Positions 10,591 through 27,137 of a stretch of DNA of 29,308 nt are shown here, one piece after another. Under the pieces are notes generated by a model. The model saw only the letters and a program-made list of their open reading frames with translations, was not told where the DNA came from and ran no database searches. The DNA lies in the IMG/VR virus record IMGVR_UViG_3300044825_001165, positions 1 through 29,308 of that record; one strand, given 5' to 3'. This stretch comes from a virus. The stretch's first letter is position 1; every line of letters begins with the position of its first letter. A program made the translations under genes and the position numbers.

Positions 10591-10784
10591 GCGTCAAGTC
10601 CAGTTTTAGGCGTTTTTTGAAAAATGTAGAGTGCAACTTCTTTTGTTTTAGCAAGTTCATAAAATGACCCTGAGGCGTGCATGGCATATCCGTAGAGGTC
10701 CAGCGCCCTCAAGATCAGTCTCAGTTCATCAGGCGATAAGAGAAACTCATCGTTGTCTTCCGTCAATTGTTCCCGTCCAGCCAT
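10587..10784 (-). CDS. Small helical protein between nuclease and helicase
   Basis: 65 aa. The sequence is mostly helical (SPDELRLILRALDLYGYAMH, then LAKTKEVALYIFQKT). I recognise no family. It overlaps the upstream nuclease end by 22 nt and the helicase start by 4 nt (ATGA), the arrangement of a genuine coupled gene rather than a chance frame. It may be a small accessory of the replication cassette, but that rests on position only. Confidence 0.65.
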   Translation of the reverse strand: MAGREQLTEDNDEFLLSPDELRLILRALDLYGYAMHASGSFYELAKTKEVALYIFQKTPKTGLDA

Positions 10785-11716
10785 TTGCTTCCATCGCTCA
10801 GCGTGTATTCCACCCAGCCTTCACCGTAATCGGTCTGCTCGCCGGGAACAAGGTCGGGGTGAAAAAGATGGTCGCCGCAGCCTCTGGCCTGTGCATCATC
10901 TGTGAGTAAGTAGTCATGCTTCTCACACTTCCACGTACCTTCAGGCAGTGGCGTTGAGTACATGCAAGTGCGGCAAGACTTCTCTCTCGGCAGTTCACCG
11001 TTGTGGCACATGCCGTGAAAGGAACAAAACTTACACTCGTACCACGCTGGGTTTTCAGAAATCTTGGACGCAGGGCGATTGGCGAAGATGACGCGCTTGG
11101 CTTTGGCAATGAACTTTTCGGCATCGGCCTGCACATACGGCGTGCGTACACTCACAATGTCCCGCAGCCCCGGTGAGCCAGCGGTCAAGTAGTGCCGATC
11201 TGCTTTGAAGTAGTGCATGTAGATCTGCGCTTGCGCGTAATAGATCGGGTCCCACTCCAGCAGCGCGTTGTCTTCGCCCTTGGACATCTTGAGCGCATGC
11301 AGCTTCTTGTGCTTTTGCTCGTTAACAACTTTGCATTCCCAGACATGCAGTCTCTTGGGCGACTGGATCAGCCCCGTAATAAGGCCGTCGCAGTTGCCGC
11401 GAAAGTGTCCGCCGAAATCTACAAAGTTGTGCTGAGCACCGGGTTCCTTTTCCGTGGAAAGATCCACTCCGGGTATGAGCCGAAGCCAACCTGCCAATAC
11501 CGTTTCGCCCCGGTGCCCATCTTCAATTCGTCGAATGCCCGCAGCCTCAATGAACGAACGCTTGGCCCAGCGAAAGTTGAGCCACAGTTTACGCTCGCAT
11601 GATTCACCAATGGCTGACGCGCCAAGGTATCGCCTGCGGTCTGTCTTTTGCGCCTTCTCAAGCGCCTCGTCCAGCGCCAATAGCGTTGGATCTTGTAACG
11701 ATGGAATCTTAACCAT
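10763..11716 (-). CDS. Cas4/RecB-like PD-(D/E)XK nuclease, Fe-S type
   Basis: 317 aa. The nuclease core shows GASAIGESCERKLWL (C40), GHRGE (67-71), GNCDG with D110, WECK (E127, K129) and AQAQIYM (Q162). C40 together with C228, C231 and C237 (ECKFCSFHGMC) matches the four-Cys iron-sulfur cluster of Cas4 and AddB-type nucleases. A second cysteine set follows (C248, C251, C264, C280) and looks like an extra zinc ribbon. Such nucleases resect or trim DNA ends in phage recombination. It is preceded by an SD-like GAGGGG 2 nt from the ATG and by a hairpin that might modulate expression. Confidence 0.88.
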   Translation of the reverse strand: MVKIPSLQDPTLLALDEALEKAQKTDRRRYLGASAIGESCERKLWLNFRWAKRSFIEAAGIRRIEDGHRGETVLAGWLRLIPGVDLSTEKEPGAQHNFVDFGGHFRGNCDGLITGLIQSPKRLHVWECKVVNEQKHKKLHALKMSKGEDNALLEWDPIYYAQAQIYMHYFKADRHYLTAGSPGLRDIVSVRTPYVQADAEKFIAKAKRVIFANRPASKISENPAWYECKFCSFHGMCHNGELPREKSCRTCMYSTPLPEGTWKCEKHDYLLTDDAQARGCGDHLFHPDLVPGEQTDYGEGWVEYTLSDGSKWLDGNN

Positions 11717-11790: not shown

Positions 11791-12261
11791 TTACTTCTTA
11801 CGTTCCCAAGGCTTCTGCGCAGGAGCCGCAGCAGCAGAGGCCGGTGCCGCAGCCGGTGCTGCTTTAGCCGGAGTACCTGCAAGCGGTGAATACTTCGCAG
11901 AGTTTTGGAGCGTACCGTCGCGACCTTCGGTGACCTTGAGTTGCACGCGCAGGGGCTTCATGTGCAGTCGCTCGGAGTCATCCAGCGCAACGATGCCGAG
12001 GGCGTTGCAGATCGCGGACAACTGACGGTTCGCAATCTCAACGGTCTTCGGGTTTTCGTTGACGAGGTTAAGTCGCTCCCAGAACTTGCCCCGTGCGGGG
12101 CCATCAAGGATGTCGAACTCCAACCACAGGTACTGACCCGTGCCGGATTTGGTATCGCGCAGATCGCTGTTCACAATCTGCATCGTGTAATCGCCCGCAG
12201 GCTTCGGACCATTGTTGGTAGTTTGCGGGGCTTCGGTAACGTTGAAATTAAGCTTAGCCAT
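11791..12261 (-). CDS. DUF669 protein, SSB-like
   Basis: 156 aa. The pattern PAGDYTMQIVNSDLRDTKSG, then LWLEFDILDGPARGKFWERLNL and VEIANRQLSAICNALGI, matches the DUF669 family of phage proteins found beside Sak4-like ATPases. That family is thought to act with or as single-strand DNA-binding proteins in phage recombination. The C-terminal about 35 residues are Ala/Pro-rich and end PWERKK, lacking the acidic SSB tail of the bacterial type. The start is set by SD GGAGAATAAA-ATG; the SD lies in the end of the upstream ATPase gene, 1 nt from whose stop the ATG follows. Partner of the AAA ATPase is inferred from neighbourhood. Confidence 0.86.
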   Translation of the reverse strand: MAKLNFNVTEAPQTTNNGPKPAGDYTMQIVNSDLRDTKSGTGQYLWLEFDILDGPARGKFWERLNLVNENPKTVEIANRQLSAICNALGIVALDDSERLHMKPLRVQLKVTEGRDGTLQNSAKYSPLAGTPAKAAPAAAPASAAAAPAQKPWERKK

Positions 12262-12262
12262 T

Positions 12263-13027
12263 TTATTCTCCGATGATTTGATTCATAGCAATCCCGAGGG
12301 CTTCGGCAAACTTGCCGTAGTCCAAAGGCAGGGTGTCAGGCAGCGGCCAACGAGACTTAGCCTGCCAGCCCGGACGTTCTTGGGTGTACAACACGCGAGT
12401 ACCTGAACCCACGGCGCGAGTGACTTTCTGGTTAAAGCCGACATCACTCTTGACCGTGCTGTACTGCTGATTGGCGAACATCATAATGTCGCACCATTCA
12501 GCAATGACGCTGGCGCTGCCGTGGTGAAGGTCTAACTGATACCTGTCGTACGGGTCAGCCAACGGGTCATCAAAGCGTCTCACCTGCGAATGGGCGAGCA
12601 TAATGACCTGCATGTTCTTAGCCGAACGAAGGTGATCAAAGCCTTCCAGCAGTTGCTTCCAGTAATCGACCGCAGCCTTGTAGCCGCGACCGTAACCGAT
12701 AGCGTCAATGGTCTTGACGTTGTTGTCTTCAGCCACGCGCTTGTGGATGAGCTGCTCGGCCCAGTCTGCGCTATCAAGAACCACGGTTTCAAATTCGTGA
12801 TCCTCGTTTGCGAGAACGCCGACCGCTTCCATCATGTCATCAAAACTCTGAGCGACGGGGAACGCTGTTGCAGAGACAGCATCAAGTCCCTCTTCGGTCT
12901 GGATGAACACGGGCTTCGGAGCTTGTGCACCAAAGGTTGATTTGCCGATGCCGTGCGTGCCGTAAAGAACAATGCGCGGCGGACGGGCGGTGCCAGTCTT
13001 CTTGAGACTAGCAAGTGAGATCGCCAT
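12263..13027 (-). CDS. Sak4-like RecA/AAA ATPase
   Basis: 254 aa. Walker A is GTHGIGKST (23-31), and a hydrophobic strand ending in D85 (FETVVLDSADW) is Walker B. Later come QVIMLAHSQVRRFDDP and WPLPDTLPLDYGKFAEAL. This fits the phage Sak4/AAA_24 group, short RecA-like ATPases that promote single-strand annealing or strand exchange together with an SSB. It is directly upstream of the DUF669 gene, the usual pairing. The start is fixed by SD AGGAGT 5-8 nt before ATG, with a GTTTAAAC palindrome between SD and ATG. Confidence 0.87.
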   Translation of the reverse strand: MAISLASLKKTGTARPPRIVLYGTHGIGKSTFGAQAPKPVFIQTEEGLDAVSATAFPVAQSFDDMMEAVGVLANEDHEFETVVLDSADWAEQLIHKRVAEDNNVKTIDAIGYGRGYKAAVDYWKQLLEGFDHLRSAKNMQVIMLAHSQVRRFDDPLADPYDRYQLDLHHGSASVIAEWCDIMMFANQQYSTVKSDVGFNQKVTRAVGSGTRVLYTQERPGWQAKSRWPLPDTLPLDYGKFAEALGIAMNQIIGE

Positions 13028-17342: not shown

Positions 17343-17465
17343 TTAGTTTCTGTCAATCAGAATCAAAAGCAAGTACAACAAAACGGCATCAATCAATTCA
17401 CCACCCAAAAGCCACGACGCGGCAACGCATACCGCAGCCAACGCGACCGTTGGGAACCAACTCAT
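17343..17465 (-). CDS. 40-aa membrane mini-protein
   Basis: Starts ATG 17465, 4-nt overlap (ATGA) with the stop of the TPR-glycosyltransferase gene; ends TAA at 17343. It begins MSWFPTVALAAVCVAASWLL and ends DAVLLYLLLILIDRN, giving one or two hydrophobic membrane spans. Strict translational coupling to the glycosyltransferase argues for a real gene and perhaps a membrane anchor or helper. No family recognised. Confidence 0.62.
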   Translation of the reverse strand: MSWFPTVALAAVCVAASWLLGGELIDAVLLYLLLILIDRN

Positions 17466-18847
17466 AACCTGTTCTTCATGGTGTGCAACTCGTAAGCCAC
17501 CGCTTCAATCTGTGGCTTCCACGGCGCAATTACGTTGCCTCGGGGGAAGATCTTCACAGACGGATACCAAAGGCTATGACCCTCTGAGTCCTTGTTGCCC
17601 CAGTACCACAGTTTGTTCGCGTCCATCAGCATGACGGGTACGCCGATGCCACCGGCCATGTGCACGGTTGATGAGCTGATGGAGACAATGACATCACACG
17701 CTGCACACAGCGCCGCGAGTCCATCCAAGTCCTTCCAGTTGTCTACGCTTGACTGAAGAATCTTGATACCCGACTTCTCCTCAAAGTCTGCGATGTCCTG
17801 CTTCACATGACCGTATTGCAGATTGACAAAGCGAGCACCCTCCATCGACAAGATCGGCAGCATGTCCGTCAGCGTCATGCTCTTGTGCGGACCAATCTTG
17901 ATGGCCGCGCTGACCCAAGAGATACCGACCACAAACTCGCCGTTCTTGATGCCAAGTTCTTTACGCAGTTCAACCACCCGCTCTGGATCGGGCTTCAGAA
18001 AGTTGCGCTTGGCATAGGTTGGGATGTCCCGCAGCTCGCCAATGAGCGATGCCCCAAGACTCGCAAAAGGAATCTGCGCATCGTGTTTATCCGCTGGAAC
18101 CTGCGAGTTGTTCGGGATGAACTCAATGTCCGGCATTGAGCGTGAGAAAAGCGGAATCAATCGCGGCTCAACCATCGCCGTCACTTGTTTTGACAAGGCG
18201 CGAACAGCCGGGAGCAACGACGCATAGATCACTTGATCCCCGATGCCCTGCTCGCCCCAAACAAGGACGCTCTTGGCTCCGCTTGTCTTCGTCCACTCGG
18301 GCTTGTTCGTCGTCAGTCGCGGTGATTTAAATCGCTCGCTCTGCCACCGGGTGTGATAGTTCGGCCACCCCGTCTTGAAGTCGCCCATCTGTAGCGCAAG
18401 CAGCCCCAAGATCCAGTTGGAGTTCGGGTCGTCGGGTCTAAGTTCTTTCGCAGCCTTGAAGTCTTCCAACGCCTTATCCCATTGCCGCAGCTCCCAGTAC
18501 GCCGCCCCACGCTGCATGTGCGACATGTGGTACTTCGGGTCAACCTTGAGGGCAGCGGTCTGATCCGCAATCGCTTCTTCGTACTTTTGCAGTTCGTTAT
18601 GACACATGCCCCGGTTGTAAAAGTCTTCCGCTAACGTGTTATTGGCTTCGGTCAAGAGCGTGTAAGACTTGATCGCCTCACGAAACCGACCCATCGTTTG
18701 AAGGAGCTTGGCCTTGGCACGGTGCAGAATCCCACTCGTCGGATGCTTGGCGATGCCGTAGTTACACAAGTCGAGCGCATCGTCATACCGCTTGGCTTGA
18801 AAGCGTTTCTCGACTTCCGCAATGATTTCTTTCTTGGTCAGTTTCAT
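17462..18847 (-). CDS. TPR protein fused to GT9/GT-B-like glycosyltransferase
   Basis: 461 aa from ATG 18847 (4-nt overlap with the upstream stop; an in-frame start 24 nt earlier is less likely). Residues about 5-165 hold four or more tetratricopeptide-like repeats (for example YNRGMCHNELQKYEEAIADQ). Residues about 190-461 resemble a GT-B glycosyltransferase: VWGEQGIGDQVIYASLL (198-205 region), a conserved SSSTVHMAGGIGVPV with H396 and a final GxxLWYPSVKIF. Similar TPR plus ADP-heptose-type (GT9-like) proteins occur in bacterial O-glycosylation and in some phages. Target (virion, host lipopolysaccharide or nucleotide sugar) is unknown. First of a glycan-gene block. Confidence 0.85.
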   Translation of the reverse strand: MKLTKKEIIAEVEKRFQAKRYDDALDLCNYGIAKHPTSGILHRAKAKLLQTMGRFREAIKSYTLLTEANNTLAEDFYNRGMCHNELQKYEEAIADQTAALKVDPKYHMSHMQRGAAYWELRQWDKALEDFKAAKELRPDDPNSNWILGLLALQMGDFKTGWPNYHTRWQSERFKSPRLTTNKPEWTKTSGAKSVLVWGEQGIGDQVIYASLLPAVRALSKQVTAMVEPRLIPLFSRSMPDIEFIPNNSQVPADKHDAQIPFASLGASLIGELRDIPTYAKRNFLKPDPERVVELRKELGIKNGEFVVGISWVSAAIKIGPHKSMTLTDMLPILSMEGARFVNLQYGHVKQDIADFEEKSGIKILQSSVDNWKDLDGLAALCAACDVIVSISSSTVHMAGGIGVPVMLMDANKLWYWGNKDSEGHSLWYPSVKIFPRGNVIAPWKPQIEAVAYELHTMKNRL

Positions 18848-19527
18848 ATCGTTGCCGCAATGCGGTTCCATTCGTTGGCGTATTCGACGTTCTTATAGTC
18901 CATGAACCATGGACCGCCACGGGTGAAGTGCACCGCCTGTGGATTCGGGCAGTCGTTGCTCGTGTACCAACCTTCTAGGTAATTCCAAGTAATCGGCAGG
19001 TCGCCAATCACATCGTCGGTCAGCCATTGGAACCGATGCAGGAACATACCAGTTTCCCTGTTCACGACCTCCGGAGTCAACGCCTTGACTTGTGGGTGCG
19101 CACAGTTGATAAGCATCATCGAAGACCAGTTCTTTCGGGGATATTGATGTTGCGGCTTGTTGTCCATTTTGACGGCCTCGGTAGGCCGATAGTCGTGCTT
19201 TACAAGCATGCACGCTTTTGTCCGGTCGGCGTGATCAAGCAGTCCCGCAACGTCCCCGCGAAACAAAAAATCGCAGTCTACAAAGACCGCCCAGCCGGTG
19301 TACCCCGCGAGATATGGAGTCAAGAAACGGCTGAATGAAAACTCAGTCGATGACATCGTATCCACAGGCCGCGTATACACCCGCTGCCCACGCAACTCGT
19401 ACTGCTTAATCGGACGCACATCCGTCAAGATCGACGCATGCTTTTCAATGCTGCGCTTGCAGACTTGATACGCAATATCCTCGCGGCTGTCCCAGCCGAC
19501 AAAGATCCGCAAGCCTTCGTCACTCAT
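18844..19527 (-). CDS. GT8/GT-A-like glycosyltransferase
   Basis: 227 aa from ATG 19527, whose ATGAGTGA overlaps the previous stop. It begins DEGLRIFVGWDSREDIAYQV and has TEFSFSRFLTPYLAGYTGWA followed by VFVDCDFLFRGDV, whose D84-C-D86 is the DxD metal/nucleotide-sugar motif of GT-A enzymes such as GT8. A conserved end (VHFTRGGPWF) also fits. It probably transfers a sugar. The stop overlaps the TPR gene ATG by 4 nt. Confidence 0.82.
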   Translation of the reverse strand: MSDEGLRIFVGWDSREDIAYQVCKRSIEKHASILTDVRPIKQYELRGQRVYTRPVDTMSSTEFSFSRFLTPYLAGYTGWAVFVDCDFLFRGDVAGLLDHADRTKACMLVKHDYRPTEAVKMDNKPQHQYPRKNWSSMMLINCAHPQVKALTPEVVNRETGMFLHRFQWLTDDVIGDLPITWNYLEGWYTSNDCPNPQAVHFTRGGPWFMDYKNVEYANEWNRIAATI

Positions 19528-19825
19528 TATCAACCTCTGGCTCCTTTAGAAAGATCACGCTGCTATCAACGGTGTGCTCCTTGTACTTGTCAAGCACCCG
19601 CATACAGTTCTCAATGGTCTGCTCACGAATGAGCACCGCTAACTTGCAAATGATCTGCGCGTTATCTCTCGGCAGATTCGCCGGATGCCGGTCATACGCC
19701 GCAGCCTGTCGCTCCACGAAGTCCCATTTAAATACATCGAGCTTCCCTTCCTCGCCAATCGTGCACCAAACCTCTTCCTCCTGCTTGGCTTCGGGCAGTT
19801 TCAGATAATCAAATTCTTCGCTCAT
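19520..19825 (-). CDS. 101-aa acidic protein
   Basis: Begins MSEEFDYLKLPEAKQEEEVW and has a helical middle (DNAQIICKLAVLIREQTIEN). No known family. It sits between two glycosyltransferase genes and overlaps the next start by 8 nt, so it may be an accessory of that block, although nothing in the sequence proves it. An ATTTAAAT palindrome lies inside it at 19726. Confidence 0.7.
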   Translation of the reverse strand: MSEEFDYLKLPEAKQEEEVWCTIGEEGKLDVFKWDFVERQAAAYDRHPANLPRDNAQIICKLAVLIREQTIENCMRVLDKYKEHTVDSSVIFLKEPEVDNE

Positions 19826-19834
19826 CCTTGTCTC

Positions 19835-20512
19835 CTAAAACGAATTCAAAAAAGCTTGCTTACGAGCGGCACCTTTGAAGTGCATGATGTGGGGGACATG
19901 CCCCTCGGGAGCCTTGTCGGGCAGGCAAGCATAGTCGAGCTCCTGCATCTCGCCCACCTGTTCGGGGTACAGGATCTGCGAATACACCTTGAGGGCTTCT
20001 TGATCGCCATACCATGAGCGCAAGTTCCGGTTCATTAGCCCCATCAAAAGCGTCATGGCTTTCCACGCATGGTAGTTCTTGGTCACGGTCGCGCAGCCAA
20101 GGTAGGGGTAGAGCACCCCCAAAGGAATCCCGTCGTACTGCTTGAACATCCCATCGCGCTGCTTGCCGTTGAACCCCGCGTCCCGATCAAACGAGCGGCG
20201 GCAGAAGATCACCTCGCGCTCTGCCAATAACGCAGCCGGATTCACAGGCAACACGAATAGCATGTCCGTATCAATGTACATCGCAGGGCGCGTGATCTTG
20301 GCTTCGGCAAATGCCCGTGTGCGCCAGTACATCATCTCCGATGCGTCACCCTTGCTGCGCTTGACTTCGTTGACCCCCTCAACATTGGGCGTCGCCTCGT
20401 CGGTACACATCACCACTTCTGCGCTAGGCATCACAGACTTCAGCGACCCCACCATCTTGGTCGGCATCGACAAGTCTTCGCCCACATGAAAGAACACAAA
20501 TACACTCATCAT
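19835..20512 (-). CDS. Putative GT-A glycosyltransferase
   Basis: 225 aa; the first ATG at 20512 shares one base with the previous stop (TAATG), and a second ATG follows at once. It begins MMSVFVFFHVGEDLSMPTKM, then a Rossmann-like strand leading to YIDTDMLFVLPV, where D81-T-D83 fits a DxD motif. Later segments (KQYDGIPLGVLYPYLG, WYGDQEAL) resemble acceptor regions of nucleotide-sugar transferases. Family assignment is tentative; a role in glycan transfer fits the neighbours. Confidence 0.72.
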   Translation of the reverse strand: MMSVFVFFHVGEDLSMPTKMVGSLKSVMPSAEVVMCTDEATPNVEGVNEVKRSKGDASEMMYWRTRAFAEAKITRPAMYIDTDMLFVLPVNPAALLAEREVIFCRRSFDRDAGFNGKQRDGMFKQYDGIPLGVLYPYLGCATVTKNYHAWKAMTLLMGLMNRNLRSWYGDQEALKVYSQILYPEQVGEMQELDYACLPDKAPEGHVPHIMHFKGAARKQAFLNSF

Positions 20513-21282
20513 TACACCTTTATAAAAAGACCTTGCCCGGTCGGGAGTTCCAGAATCTTCTCCGGCTTGTCCGACAGGAACTCGCGGTGCGCTTCAGCCG
20601 ATTGCCGGTAACGCTTGAATCCAAAGTCATCAAAAACCGCGACCGCGCCACGCTCCATCCGTGCATACACCTCGGGGAACACATGCGCTTCGGCCTCGGC
20701 GTAATTTAAATCAATGTGCGCAAAACAAATCCGATCCGGCAACGCAGCCGGGGTTGTCTGCGTCACGTCCCCCGCAACGATGACAGGGCGATATGCCTTG
20801 AGCCGCTTCTCTACAACCGCTGCCAGATCAGGCCCGTGCGAAACCTTGCGGGACTCCTCAGGCGCGTTATCAAAGAAGTCAAAGATGTAAAGGTTGCGCC
20901 CCAGCATCTCAGGGCTGTTGTAGTTACAAAAAACCTTGGTCGTCTTGCCGTCGTAGCAGCCAATGTCTACGACATCTCCGGCTACGTTCAAGCCCTGATT
21001 CAACGCCCAGCACAAGTTGTAGATGCGCCACATGCGAGCGCGGAGGGTCGTGTCCTCGTTAAACTCGCTGAACGCTGCTTGAAACCGCTCGTCAGTTAGA
21101 AAGAACAGATTGCGAAACCACACCAACAAGTCATCGTGAAAGGTCGCGTGACCGTGGGCGGTATTGATCTGCAAGTCCTTGGCGATATGACTTACCGCAG
21201 CCGCAAAGGATTTAAACCGCTGCTCAGAATCAAAGAGAAGCTGGTAGTCCTTGTTCAAGAAGGCGGCGACGGGGAGGGTCAT
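20512..21282 (-). CDS. TylF-like SAM-dependent O-methyltransferase
   Basis: 256 aa. VVDIGCYDGKT (104-114) is the SAM-binding glycine loop of class I methyltransferases. FAHIDLNYAEAEAHVFPEVY and VAVFDDFGF (about 187-222) match the TylF/macrocin O-methyltransferase group, which methylates sugar hydroxyls in a metal-dependent manner. The N-terminal about 100 residues form a helical cap. It is adjacent to glycosyltransferase genes, so methylation of a transferred sugar is a coherent role. It overlaps the previous stop by 4 nt (ATGA). Confidence 0.85.
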   Translation of the reverse strand: MTLPVAAFLNKDYQLLFDSEQRFKSFAAAVSHIAKDLQINTAHGHATFHDDLLVWFRNLFFLTDERFQAAFSEFNEDTTLRARMWRIYNLCWALNQGLNVAGDVVDIGCYDGKTTKVFCNYNSPEMLGRNLYIFDFFDNAPEESRKVSHGPDLAAVVEKRLKAYRPVIVAGDVTQTTPAALPDRICFAHIDLNYAEAEAHVFPEVYARMERGAVAVFDDFGFKRYRQSAEAHREFLSDKPEKILELPTGQGLFIKV

Positions 21283-25190: not shown

Positions 25191-25907
25191 TTATTGCGCC
25201 GTCAGTCTAAAAAGAGTGTTCGGAAGGATGAGCGCGGTCGTGCATTGATCCCGCAGCCCAAAGCGGGCGAGCGTCTCCCGATCTGGCGGGTAGACCAGAA
25301 TGTGCGAGAAGGGCGGGGTCAGTCGCTGCAAAAGAGAATAATTCGCAACGCCCTTTTCCAGCCCCTCAAAGTCATCCAAGGCAAAGAACGTATCGCGGTG
25401 CTTTAGCGTCTTGATGAGGTCAACGTCGCCTTCGGGGAGCCGACCGTCTAGAAAGATCATGTCGGGCAGTATCCGTTTGGATATAACGTCCTCAAACATT
25501 TCGGTGCTGCTCTGGCGGGGATAGCGGCAGATTTCCGTCGAGGATGTTGTGAAGGCAGGGTCGTTCTCCAAAGCAATATCGTTGTTTAAATCGCAGGTGT
25601 AGATCAGCGGTTCGTCCACCCCCGCAAGGGTCATGCCCTCGGAGAGCGCGTAGGTGGAGCGACCGATATACGTGCCGACCTCCACCACCGTCTTGGGCTT
25701 GAAGTAGTACGCCGTAGCCGTCAAAGCCCAAATGGACGAGACAGAGATGCTGCCGGTGGGGTTTTCGGCCTTGGCCTCCAAGCGGCCCAAGTCATGCGCC
25801 ATCGCGGTGATCTCGGGACGGACGTACTCGACCATCTGCGCGTTCTCAAAGATGCGCTGCCAGATCAGTTGCGATAGGGCTTGTCGGTTTAAATTGAGCG
25901 GGTTCAC
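25191..25907 (-). CDS. Class I SAM-dependent methyltransferase
   Basis: 238 aa from GTG 25907, chosen because GGAGG lies 5 nt upstream; the longer frame upstream overlaps a small gene and lacks an SD. Begins MNPLNLNRQALSQLIWQRIF. TVVEVGTYIGRST (about 72-84) is the SAM loop, and later DMIFLDGRLPEGDVDLI and DTFFALDDFEGLEKGVANY match Methyltransf_24-like enzymes. Substrate unknown; small sugar or lipid acceptors are typical for such proteins. It could act with the glycan block or on nucleotides. Confidence 0.82.
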   Translation of the reverse strand: MNPLNLNRQALSQLIWQRIFENAQMVEYVRPEITAMAHDLGRLEAKAENPTGSISVSSIWALTATAYYFKPKTVVEVGTYIGRSTYALSEGMTLAGVDEPLIYTCDLNNDIALENDPAFTTSSTEICRYPRQSSTEMFEDVISKRILPDMIFLDGRLPEGDVDLIKTLKHRDTFFALDDFEGLEKGVANYSLLQRLTPPFSHILVYPPDRETLARFGLRDQCTTALILPNTLFRLTAQ

Positions 25908-25996
25908 AAGTGCCTCCGAAAGATAAAGACCAGAGCGGCAAAGAGGATGAGCAGGAACGCCATGTTTGCGGCGATCTCGTAGTCGGTGGGGGTCAT
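25904..25996 (-). CDS. 30-aa membrane mini-protein
   Basis: ATG 25996 to TGA 25904-25906. Sequence is MTPTDYEIAANMAFLLILFA with ALVFIFRRHL, one membrane span with a basic end. It overlaps the previous stop (ATGA) and the next GTG (GTGA), and the SD of the methyltransferase lies inside it. Very short, so it could be a translation-coupling leader, but its composition and phasing fit a real phage membrane peptide. Confidence 0.5.
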   Translation of the reverse strand: MTPTDYEIAANMAFLLILFAALVFIFRRHL

Positions 25997-26268
25997 GCCT
26001 TGGCCCTCCGCTTGTTAGGCTTCGCGCTGCCGTCAATCGTTTCGAGCAACTTGAGCGCGTCCTTCTTGATGAGCTTCTCCGCGCCAGTTTGCAAAGGCTT
26101 CGGAAGTGCGCGAATGATCGACTCCGCAAGTGAAGTCAGAAAGAAAGAGGCATCGTCACGGTTGGTGACAATCGCAGCCGTGGTGAGCAACGCAGCCACT
26201 TTGATGTCATTGTCAAGCGAGAGAACATCGTGGGCGGGTTTGCGGTCGGTGACTTTGCGCTTTTTCAT
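25993..26268 (-). CDS. 91-aa basic protein
   Basis: ATG 26268 inside the GGAGGCCGCATGA junction element. Begins MKKRKVTDRKPAHDVLSLDN, a helical middle (VAALLTTAAIVTNRDDASFF) and a Lys/Arg-rich end (KPNKRRAKA). Likely nucleic-acid associated by composition. No family recognised. Confidence 0.66.
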   Translation of the reverse strand: MKKRKVTDRKPAHDVLSLDNDIKVAALLTTAAIVTNRDDASFFLTSLAESIIRALPKPLQTGAEKLIKKDALKLLETIDGSAKPNKRRAKA

Positions 26269-26504
26269 GCGGCCTCCCTCTGGTTCAAAATGCTCAAGGC
26301 GACAAGCGTCAGCGTCTTACTGTCTGATCGTATGAACTCCTTGTCTTCTGTGGCACGCAATAGACTGTCAATAAGCTCGGCCTCTTTCTCGTTATTTGCA
26401 GTCAATACGCAATCAAGGCGTGTCAGAAATTCCACTTCCCTACGCTCCCCGTGGATGGTTGCGTAGTCGGACTCCATCGCGCCGACATAAAAGTGAGTCT
26501 TCAT
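26265..26504 (-). CDS. 79-aa protein ending REAA
   Basis: ATG 26504 in a junction element. Begins MKTHFYVGAMESDYATIHGE, has beta/alpha-looking sequence with FLTRLDCVLTANNEKEAELI. Ends in REAA because the SD for the next gene is encoded there. Unrecognised. Confidence 0.65.
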   Translation of the reverse strand: MKTHFYVGAMESDYATIHGERREVEFLTRLDCVLTANNEKEAELIDSLLRATEDKEFIRSDSKTLTLVALSILNQREAA

Positions 26505-26743
26505 GCTGCCTCCGCATCTTTAATTAAATACTCCGAAATAATCCATTGGGCGCGATTTATCGCCTGTCGTGCGTCTTTAATATCGCCCCATGTAATTTCG
26601 TCTTGTGCGTCCCCCAACAGACTCAATGCCATCATCGCCGCACCATTACCGCGCTGGAAGGCTAGTTTCTTCTGAACCTCCTCGCGCATTTGTTCTTCGG
26701 TGCAGCCAAAAATCTTAATGTGTTCAGCGTCTTTACCTTTCAT
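26501..26743 (-). CDS. 80-aa helical protein ending AEAA
   Basis: ATG 26743 in a junction element. Begins MKGKDAEHIKIFGCTEEQMR, then EEVQKKLAFQRGNGAAMMAL and a helical end (DARQAINRAQWIISEYLIKD). Unrecognised. The AEAA end matches the other three genes in this series. Confidence 0.65.
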   Translation of the reverse strand: MKGKDAEHIKIFGCTEEQMREEVQKKLAFQRGNGAAMMALSLLGDAQDEITWGDIKDARQAINRAQWIISEYLIKDAEAA

Positions 26744-26946
26744 GCGGCCTCCTCGCAGTCCTCTACCTCGTGCATTACAACGTCACGCCAATCGTGTTCT
26801 TCTTCGTCGTAACTGTCTTCGTGATCGGCCCAATCCTTGTCAATCAGTTTTTCACGCGCTTCCTGTTCGTTTTCAGCGGTGACGAAAACCAGTCGAACAC
26901 CGTAACTCACTACGGGAACGGTGAAGGTGTAGTACTTCTCGCTCAT
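26740..26946 (-). CDS. 68-aa acidic protein ending EEAA
   Basis: ATG 26946 in a junction element. Begins MSEKYYTFTVPVVSYGVRLV, a beta-like segment, then ENEQEAREKLIDKDWADHED and a very acidic end (DEEEHDWRDVVMHEVEDCEE). A DNA-mimic or metal-binding role is conceivable from the acidity. No family recognised. Confidence 0.62.
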   Translation of the reverse strand: MSEKYYTFTVPVVSYGVRLVFVTAENEQEAREKLIDKDWADHEDSYDEEEHDWRDVVMHEVEDCEEAA

Positions 26947-27137
26947 GCAGCCTCCTGCGGGAAATCCGCGTCAATCGTTTGCAGTTGGTACTCGTAAGCC
27001 CAATGGTCGTTATCAAGTATGTAAGCCAACTTGCCGCGCTTGTCGGTCAAGCTTGTAATCGTGGCGGGTTTAGGGGGTTCGGTTCCCCATGTCCCAGACC
27101 ACATGACTCGTTGTCCAATCTCGTATTGGTAGTGCAT
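26943..27137 (-). CDS. 64-aa protein ending QEAA
   Basis: ATG 27137 chosen by SD (AGGAGACATGAG). Begins MHYQYEIGQRVMWSGTWGTE, has ITSLTDKRGKLAYILDNDHW, consistent with a small SH3-like or beta-barrel fold found in phage proteins. Ends QEAA as above. Unrecognised by name. Confidence 0.62.
   Translation of the reverse strand: MHYQYEIGQRVMWSGTWGTEPPKPATITSLTDKRGKLAYILDNDHWAYEYQLQTIDADFPQEAA

Follow-up and report, generated by a model that had tools for sequence, protein, structure and literature searches.

Comparison of a 29-kb virus fragment from IMG/VR (29,308 bases, hereafter the window) with its relatives shows, as read from aligned sequences, that small genes joined by a short, near-uniform stop/start junction (GGAGGCNGCATGA, hereafter the seam) are gained, lost and replaced as whole cassettes whose edges lie at seams, and that seams are alike within phage lineages and different between them. 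Exchange at seam borders is well supported by these comparisons, the relevant evidence being a three-gene replacement relative to locus L097, a step in identity at the junctions, an excess of homology edges at seams, and 22 clean cassette insertions or deletions. That the 13-nt homology itself drives such exchange is, by contrast, something that we infer.

A pattern search of both strands located four copies of GGAGGCNGCATGA in the 29,308 bases, all on the minus strand (26265, 26501, 26740 and 26943, with N = C, A, C and T, respectively) and no further copy on either strand, thereby confirming the GGAGGC(C/A/T)GCATGA that a preliminary description had placed at four consecutive junctions. The motif was absent from the adjoining junctions at 25996, 27501 and 28206. 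Each of the four copies is an ATGA overlap joining consecutive small genes, and each combines the elements previously ascribed to it: in the upstream reading frame, G-GAG-GCN-GCA-TGA specifies a C-terminal -Glu-Ala-Ala (the four proteins end in QEAA, EEAA, AEAA and REAA) and the stop, while for the downstream gene the same bases provide GGAGG as Shine-Dalgarno sequence (SD), a 4-nt spacer and the ATG. A looser seam, GAG GCN GCATGA, takes in the 13-mer as well as SD-shifted forms. The genes and seams concerned are as follows.

26943..27137, minus strand: gene A, 64 aa, family F5, the left anchor common to relatives; no Pfam or PHROG match
26943..26955, minus strand: seam 1 (A/B), GGAGGCTGCATGA, left edge of the swap relative to L097
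26740..26946, minus strand: gene B, a cassette, 68 aa, family F10, with relatives in L006 and L007-L010, where its neighbours are others
26740..26752, minus strand: seam 2 (B/C), GGAGGCCGCATGA, the end of B, after which L006 and L007/L100 carry different genes
26501..26743, minus strand: gene C, a cassette, 80 aa, without a relative among the compared haplotypes
26501..26513, minus strand: seam 3 (C/D), GGAGGCAGCATGA
26265..26504, minus strand: gene D, a cassette, 79 aa, without a relative among the compared haplotypes
26265..26277, minus strand: seam 4 (D/E), GGAGGCCGCATGA, the first base of which is the right edge of the swap relative to L097, L095 and L096
25993..26268, minus strand: gene E, 91 aa, family F11, the right anchor of the swap
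25191..25907, minus strand: conserved downstream gene, family F1, 238 aa, SAM-methyltransferase-like by eye only, with no family match in Pfam or PHROG

A short ORF sits between gene E and the F1 gene. All-against-all blastp assigned genes A-E to different families or left them as orphans, and no two of these joined proteins grouped, a result consistent with the original claim that the joined proteins are unrelated. The array proteins gave no informative match in Pfam or PHROG, gene B having a weak match to PHROG 13997, a family without assigned function. No promoters or terminators above chance were detected in the array region. The window also holds rightward tail genes, together with replication and recombination genes; a minus-strand block at 17462-21282, downstream of the array, by eye contains genes resembling glycosyltransferases and methyltransferases and one for a TPR-type protein.

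Dinucleotide shuffles of the window predicted 0.01 copies of GGAGGCNGCATGA, as against the four observed. Since the SD and the ATGA are functional, a fair null concerns the CNGC spacer and is harsher than the shuffles: among viral GGAGG-4nt-ATGA junctions no spacer class is commoner than CNGC, with a share of 10-17% (the higher figure coming from stricter gene calls in viral contigs), and three further identical junctions in succession then have a probability of ~0.001-0.005. The run of four seams is hence unlikely under this null, not astronomically rare, and the comparative evidence is the stronger. An origin of the repeated seam from chance and composition can draw on that prevalence of CNGC, but in view of both nulls, and of the recurrence of the array in relatives, is considered most improbable.

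Approximately 100 loci were collected using A, B, the 238-aa gene and the cassette families V and F9 as queries. Ten related records (~330 kb) contained 26 copies of the 13-mer, confined to a single strand within each record, and no copies of a reversed-pattern control. In those relatives checked directly every copy lay where the stop of one open frame overlaps the start of another, and the motif is thus junction-bound there as it is in the window. Identical arrays were present in four separate IMG/VR records (L007-L010), which argues against misassembly. The same relatives also bear out the suggestion that gene content switches at seams. Where the window has A-B-C-D-E, L097 and L095/L096 have A-V-E, the B-C-D block of the window taking the place of the single gene V; relative to L097 (flank identities of 84% and 91%), homology stops at the TGA of A and restarts with the initial G of the E seam. 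Similarly, L100 and L106, with flanks 93-97% identical, differ by the swap of three genes as a block, the edges again falling at seams. Gene families recur in new orders, V being preceded by four different families and followed by five or more.

Neither gene V nor the exonuclease had a relative in 84,980 prokaryote genomes searched for a host, no close phage was found in INPHARED, and gene B and family F1 had no match in the phage collection. By eye, B (26740-26946), V and F9 share a short beta-strand start followed by V-x-A-x-d-x-x-E-A; they may be remote relatives, in which case some cassettes could be old paralogues.

Junction identities, derived from comparisons that are not independent and are dominated by family F0, changed abruptly at the seam. 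When the same gene stood behind unrelated upstream genes (31 comparisons), identity was ~0.28 upstream of -13 and 0.87-1.0 at -8 to -1, with only 0.39 at N; when one gene stood before differing genes (59 comparisons), identity fell to ~0.3 directly past the TGA. Unique homology edges in tight arrays were correspondingly concentrated, 29/56 left edges lying 0-7 nt after the ATG (3.1 expected) and 44/74 right edges at -16 to +1 (9.4 expected), with the remaining 27/56 and 30/74, respectively, outside seams. A joint of another sort is evident in gene E: the window (25993-26268) and L006 (5738-6001) share the seam and the first 27 nt of the gene, a block of 36 bp at 97% identity encoding MKKRKVTDR (nine codons), past which they encode unrelated proteins, the remainder in L006 belonging to family F2. 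As aligned, this joint is inside a gene and not at its border.

In the 22 clean insertions or deletions, both of whose ends lie at seams, insert lengths were mostly 3n+2, corresponding to one ATGA-overlapped cassette. Their edge overlaps were bimodal: nine had direct repeats of 14-21 nt, in two different seam dialects, and in 13 the flanking seams shared just 4-7 nt, approximately what keeping the ATGA demands. Full-seam homology is consequently not required, and a preference for it in cassette gain and loss was not demonstrated among these 22 events. The proposal that seams serve as recombination points accordingly divides: content does switch there, while service as the recombining substrate is a possible role of the seam, overlaps being long in nine events and short in 13. 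The sole freely varying base of the seam, N, is the synonymous third base of an alanine codon, which suggests that some coding constraint would act on the seam besides.

Other lineages carrying homologous genes of the array deploy seams of their own: GGAGGAC(A/G)A(G/C)GCATGA in L263, L264 and L272-L274, GAGGAGGTG(C/A)AGTCATGA in L265-L268, and GGAGGTCGCATGA in L261, L262 and L279. The protein tails of families F9 and V vary by phage lineage (EAA, EVA, EVQP/VQP, EVQS/VQS and DEA), and since the tails within a family change with lineage, the seam tracks lineage rather than gene; it was therefore correctly supposed that the junction, and not the protein tail, is conserved. The two seams of family F9 at one locus resembled each other to a significant, if modest, degree (3.70 versus 4.26 mismatches in 9 nt). 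In a single array (L229:4600-5500), GGAGGCNGCATGA was seen together with another repeated seam, GAGGTGCGA(A)C preceding GTGA/ATGA. The seam GGAGGTGATCGCATGA, at L100:5360-5380 and in L106, matches the complement of the 3' end of E. coli 16S rRNA over ten bases.

The pattern proved to be widespread. From viral contigs, GGAGGNNNNATGA junctions lying 213-243 bp from one another were paired regardless of spacer; of the 119 pairs, 31 had identical spacers compared with 1.7 expected, and the matches came from many unrelated phages with many different spacers. The excess was centred on the spacer and was gone within a few nucleotides to either side. Spacer identity decayed with distance (39% below 400 bp, 15% at 1.5-4 kb, 0/18 above 4 kb and 1.7% between contigs), and was strongest for ATGA junctions and much lower at non-ATGA starts of the same genomes. 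The flanking positions, and a spacer match of just 4.5% for in-frame motif copies inside genes, ruled out composition or codon usage as the source of matching spacers; a genome-wide ribosome-binding-site preference was disfavoured by the much lower sharing at non-ATGA starts and distant junctions.

The reading that we favour, with modest confidence, is that of an interlocked cassette array in which exchange is assisted by pairing between seams, the local seam being copied in the process, and selection removes other joints. The array would consist of translationally interlocked small accessory phage genes, each cassette beginning at its ATG and ending in GAG GCN GCA TGA, and each seam would supply the next gene with its SD and the previous protein with a neutral Glu-Ala-Ala tail, and would contain the stop and start codons in overlap; with a like seam at both ends of a cassette, any cassette order would keep reading frames and ribosome-binding sites. 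Against this reading, lengths of 13-16 nt are short for ordinary homologous recombination. Seams would probably pair through the annealing machinery of the phage itself, for which the window encodes the following candidates.

12263..13027, minus strand: Sak4-like single-strand annealing protein (PHROG 124, E 1e-42), candidate recombinase for the exchanges
11791..12261, minus strand: single-strand DNA-binding protein (SSB) adjoining sak4 (PHROG 6015, E 1e-33)
10763..11716, minus strand: Cas4-domain exonuclease (PHROG 1990, E 3e-72)

The Sak4 of phage HK620 is an ATP-dependent annealase that is stimulated by its SSB and anneals DNA up to 20% diverged (PMC5928155). Seam pairing would imprint the resident seam onto incoming cassettes, and joints elsewhere would be purged by selection for intact genes. 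By extension, and tentatively, a lineage dialect could be a junction phrase that makes accessory genes interchangeable, is spread and maintained by seam recombination, and partly decides with which partners genes are traded.

The short overlaps, the synonymous free base and the almost half of edges lying off-seam make illegitimate recombination at random, followed by selection for intact frames and SD, the main rival; seams would then be alike by convergence and not by pairing, translational coupling and a C-terminal tail that does no harm both favouring the one form. The prevalence of CNGC among viral GGAGG-ATGA junctions, where it leads all spacer classes, is in keeping with such convergence, as are the lambdoid nin genes of unrelated phages that carry GCNGCATGA and the exact 13-mer at ninH of phage As3. 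This account nevertheless leaves unexplained why spacer matches are local and become rarer with distance, why homologous genes carry differing dialects in different lineages, and why identity is focused in the spacer between unrelated genes, and it is at odds with the lower spacer sharing at non-ATGA starts; we regard it as a serious though less probable alternative.

Old tandem duplicates that have diverged save for a functional junction would also leave repeated seams, and paralogues are present in certain arrays (two F0 members in L219 and L222). However, genes A-E fall into different families or none, downstream identity is at background within a few nucleotides, an unconstrained spacer would be expected to diverge first, and the excess was unchanged in junction pairs with downstream 30 nt less than 47% identical (22/71 spacer matches versus 1.4), so that duplication is thought very unlikely. 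The exact, repeated, strand-specific occurrence of the motif at gene starts could signify a dedicated site-specific recombinase, or a regulatory RNA or protein, acting at the 13-mer, as has been proposed for start-associated sequences; against this, the four seams had no common or unusually stable RNA structure (fold z-scores of 2.1, 1.2, 0.3 and -0.95 relative to shuffles), and other lineages use other sequences for the same job. The probability of such a factor is accordingly judged to be slight.

The seam has parallels in known systems. Boundary sequences were reportedly described by Susskind and Botstein in 1978 for P22, and by Clark and colleagues in 2001 for HK620. In the parts of the literature consulted, those of lambdoid phages are presented as short conserved border sequences proposed for homologous module exchange (PMC2327257, PMC3029335). 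The seam resembles them both as a short conserved sequence bordering exchangeable modules and in that modules of relatives switch at it, but, as far as those accounts extend, differs in lying inside a coding overlap, in recurring along one array, and in having lineage dialects. The ninR region of lambda comprises interlinked small genes with ATGA overlaps (Kroger & Hobom 1982, as cited in PMC8022706), and the window array is likewise a tandem of small accessory genes that overlap as ATGA and differ in content at borders. Genes A-E and their neighbours had no nin family match in Pfam or PHROG, and thus gave no sign of homology to lambdoid nin genes. When lambda, HK97, HK620, epsilon34, As3 and ev245 were tested alike, genes again switched at starts, whereas the spacer was shared only weakly (0.27-0.77 at -8 to -1, compared with the high values of the window family, N excepted). 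Lambda ninC, ninD and ninH begin with GCNGCATGA (L233:1082, 1951 and 3041), and ninH of the Salmonella phage As3 carries the exact GGAGGCCGCATGA (L238:2377), which indicates that the phrase recurs in unrelated phages.

The start-associated sequences (SAS) of cluster K mycobacteriophages, a 13-bp asymmetric repeat just upstream of many starts that is associated with differing gene families from phage to phage (PMC3203893), are similar to the seam as a repeated 13-bp motif at gene starts. The two nonetheless differ in sequence, GGAGGCNGCATGA not matching the SAS GGGATAGGAGCCC; half of the SAS copies have an inverted-repeat extension (PMC3203893), and the description of SAS does not place them where the stop of one gene overlaps the start of the next, while the seam includes the start codon. 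A limited search of the open literature found no description of lineage-specific seams: boundary sequences and interlinked ninR genes are already known, but the near-uniform form of the seam, together with its dialects, appears to be new.

It has long been debated whether phage mosaics are products of random joining with subsequent selection or of pairing between short borders that the partners share, and boundary sequences have been reported as not findable at most mosaic joints (PMC3029335). The widespread identity of spacers renders the question of mosaic formation testable by computation and by phage crosses. In Island3 an extra gene at 67/68 lies between ~50 bp shared tail copies, and was read as recombination of the boundary-sequence type (PMC3029335). 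Compared with that one event at a longer repeat, the window family presents many events at repeats of 13-21 nt or less; its natural cassette switches, of which there are dozens, have edges resolved to the base and span several dialects.
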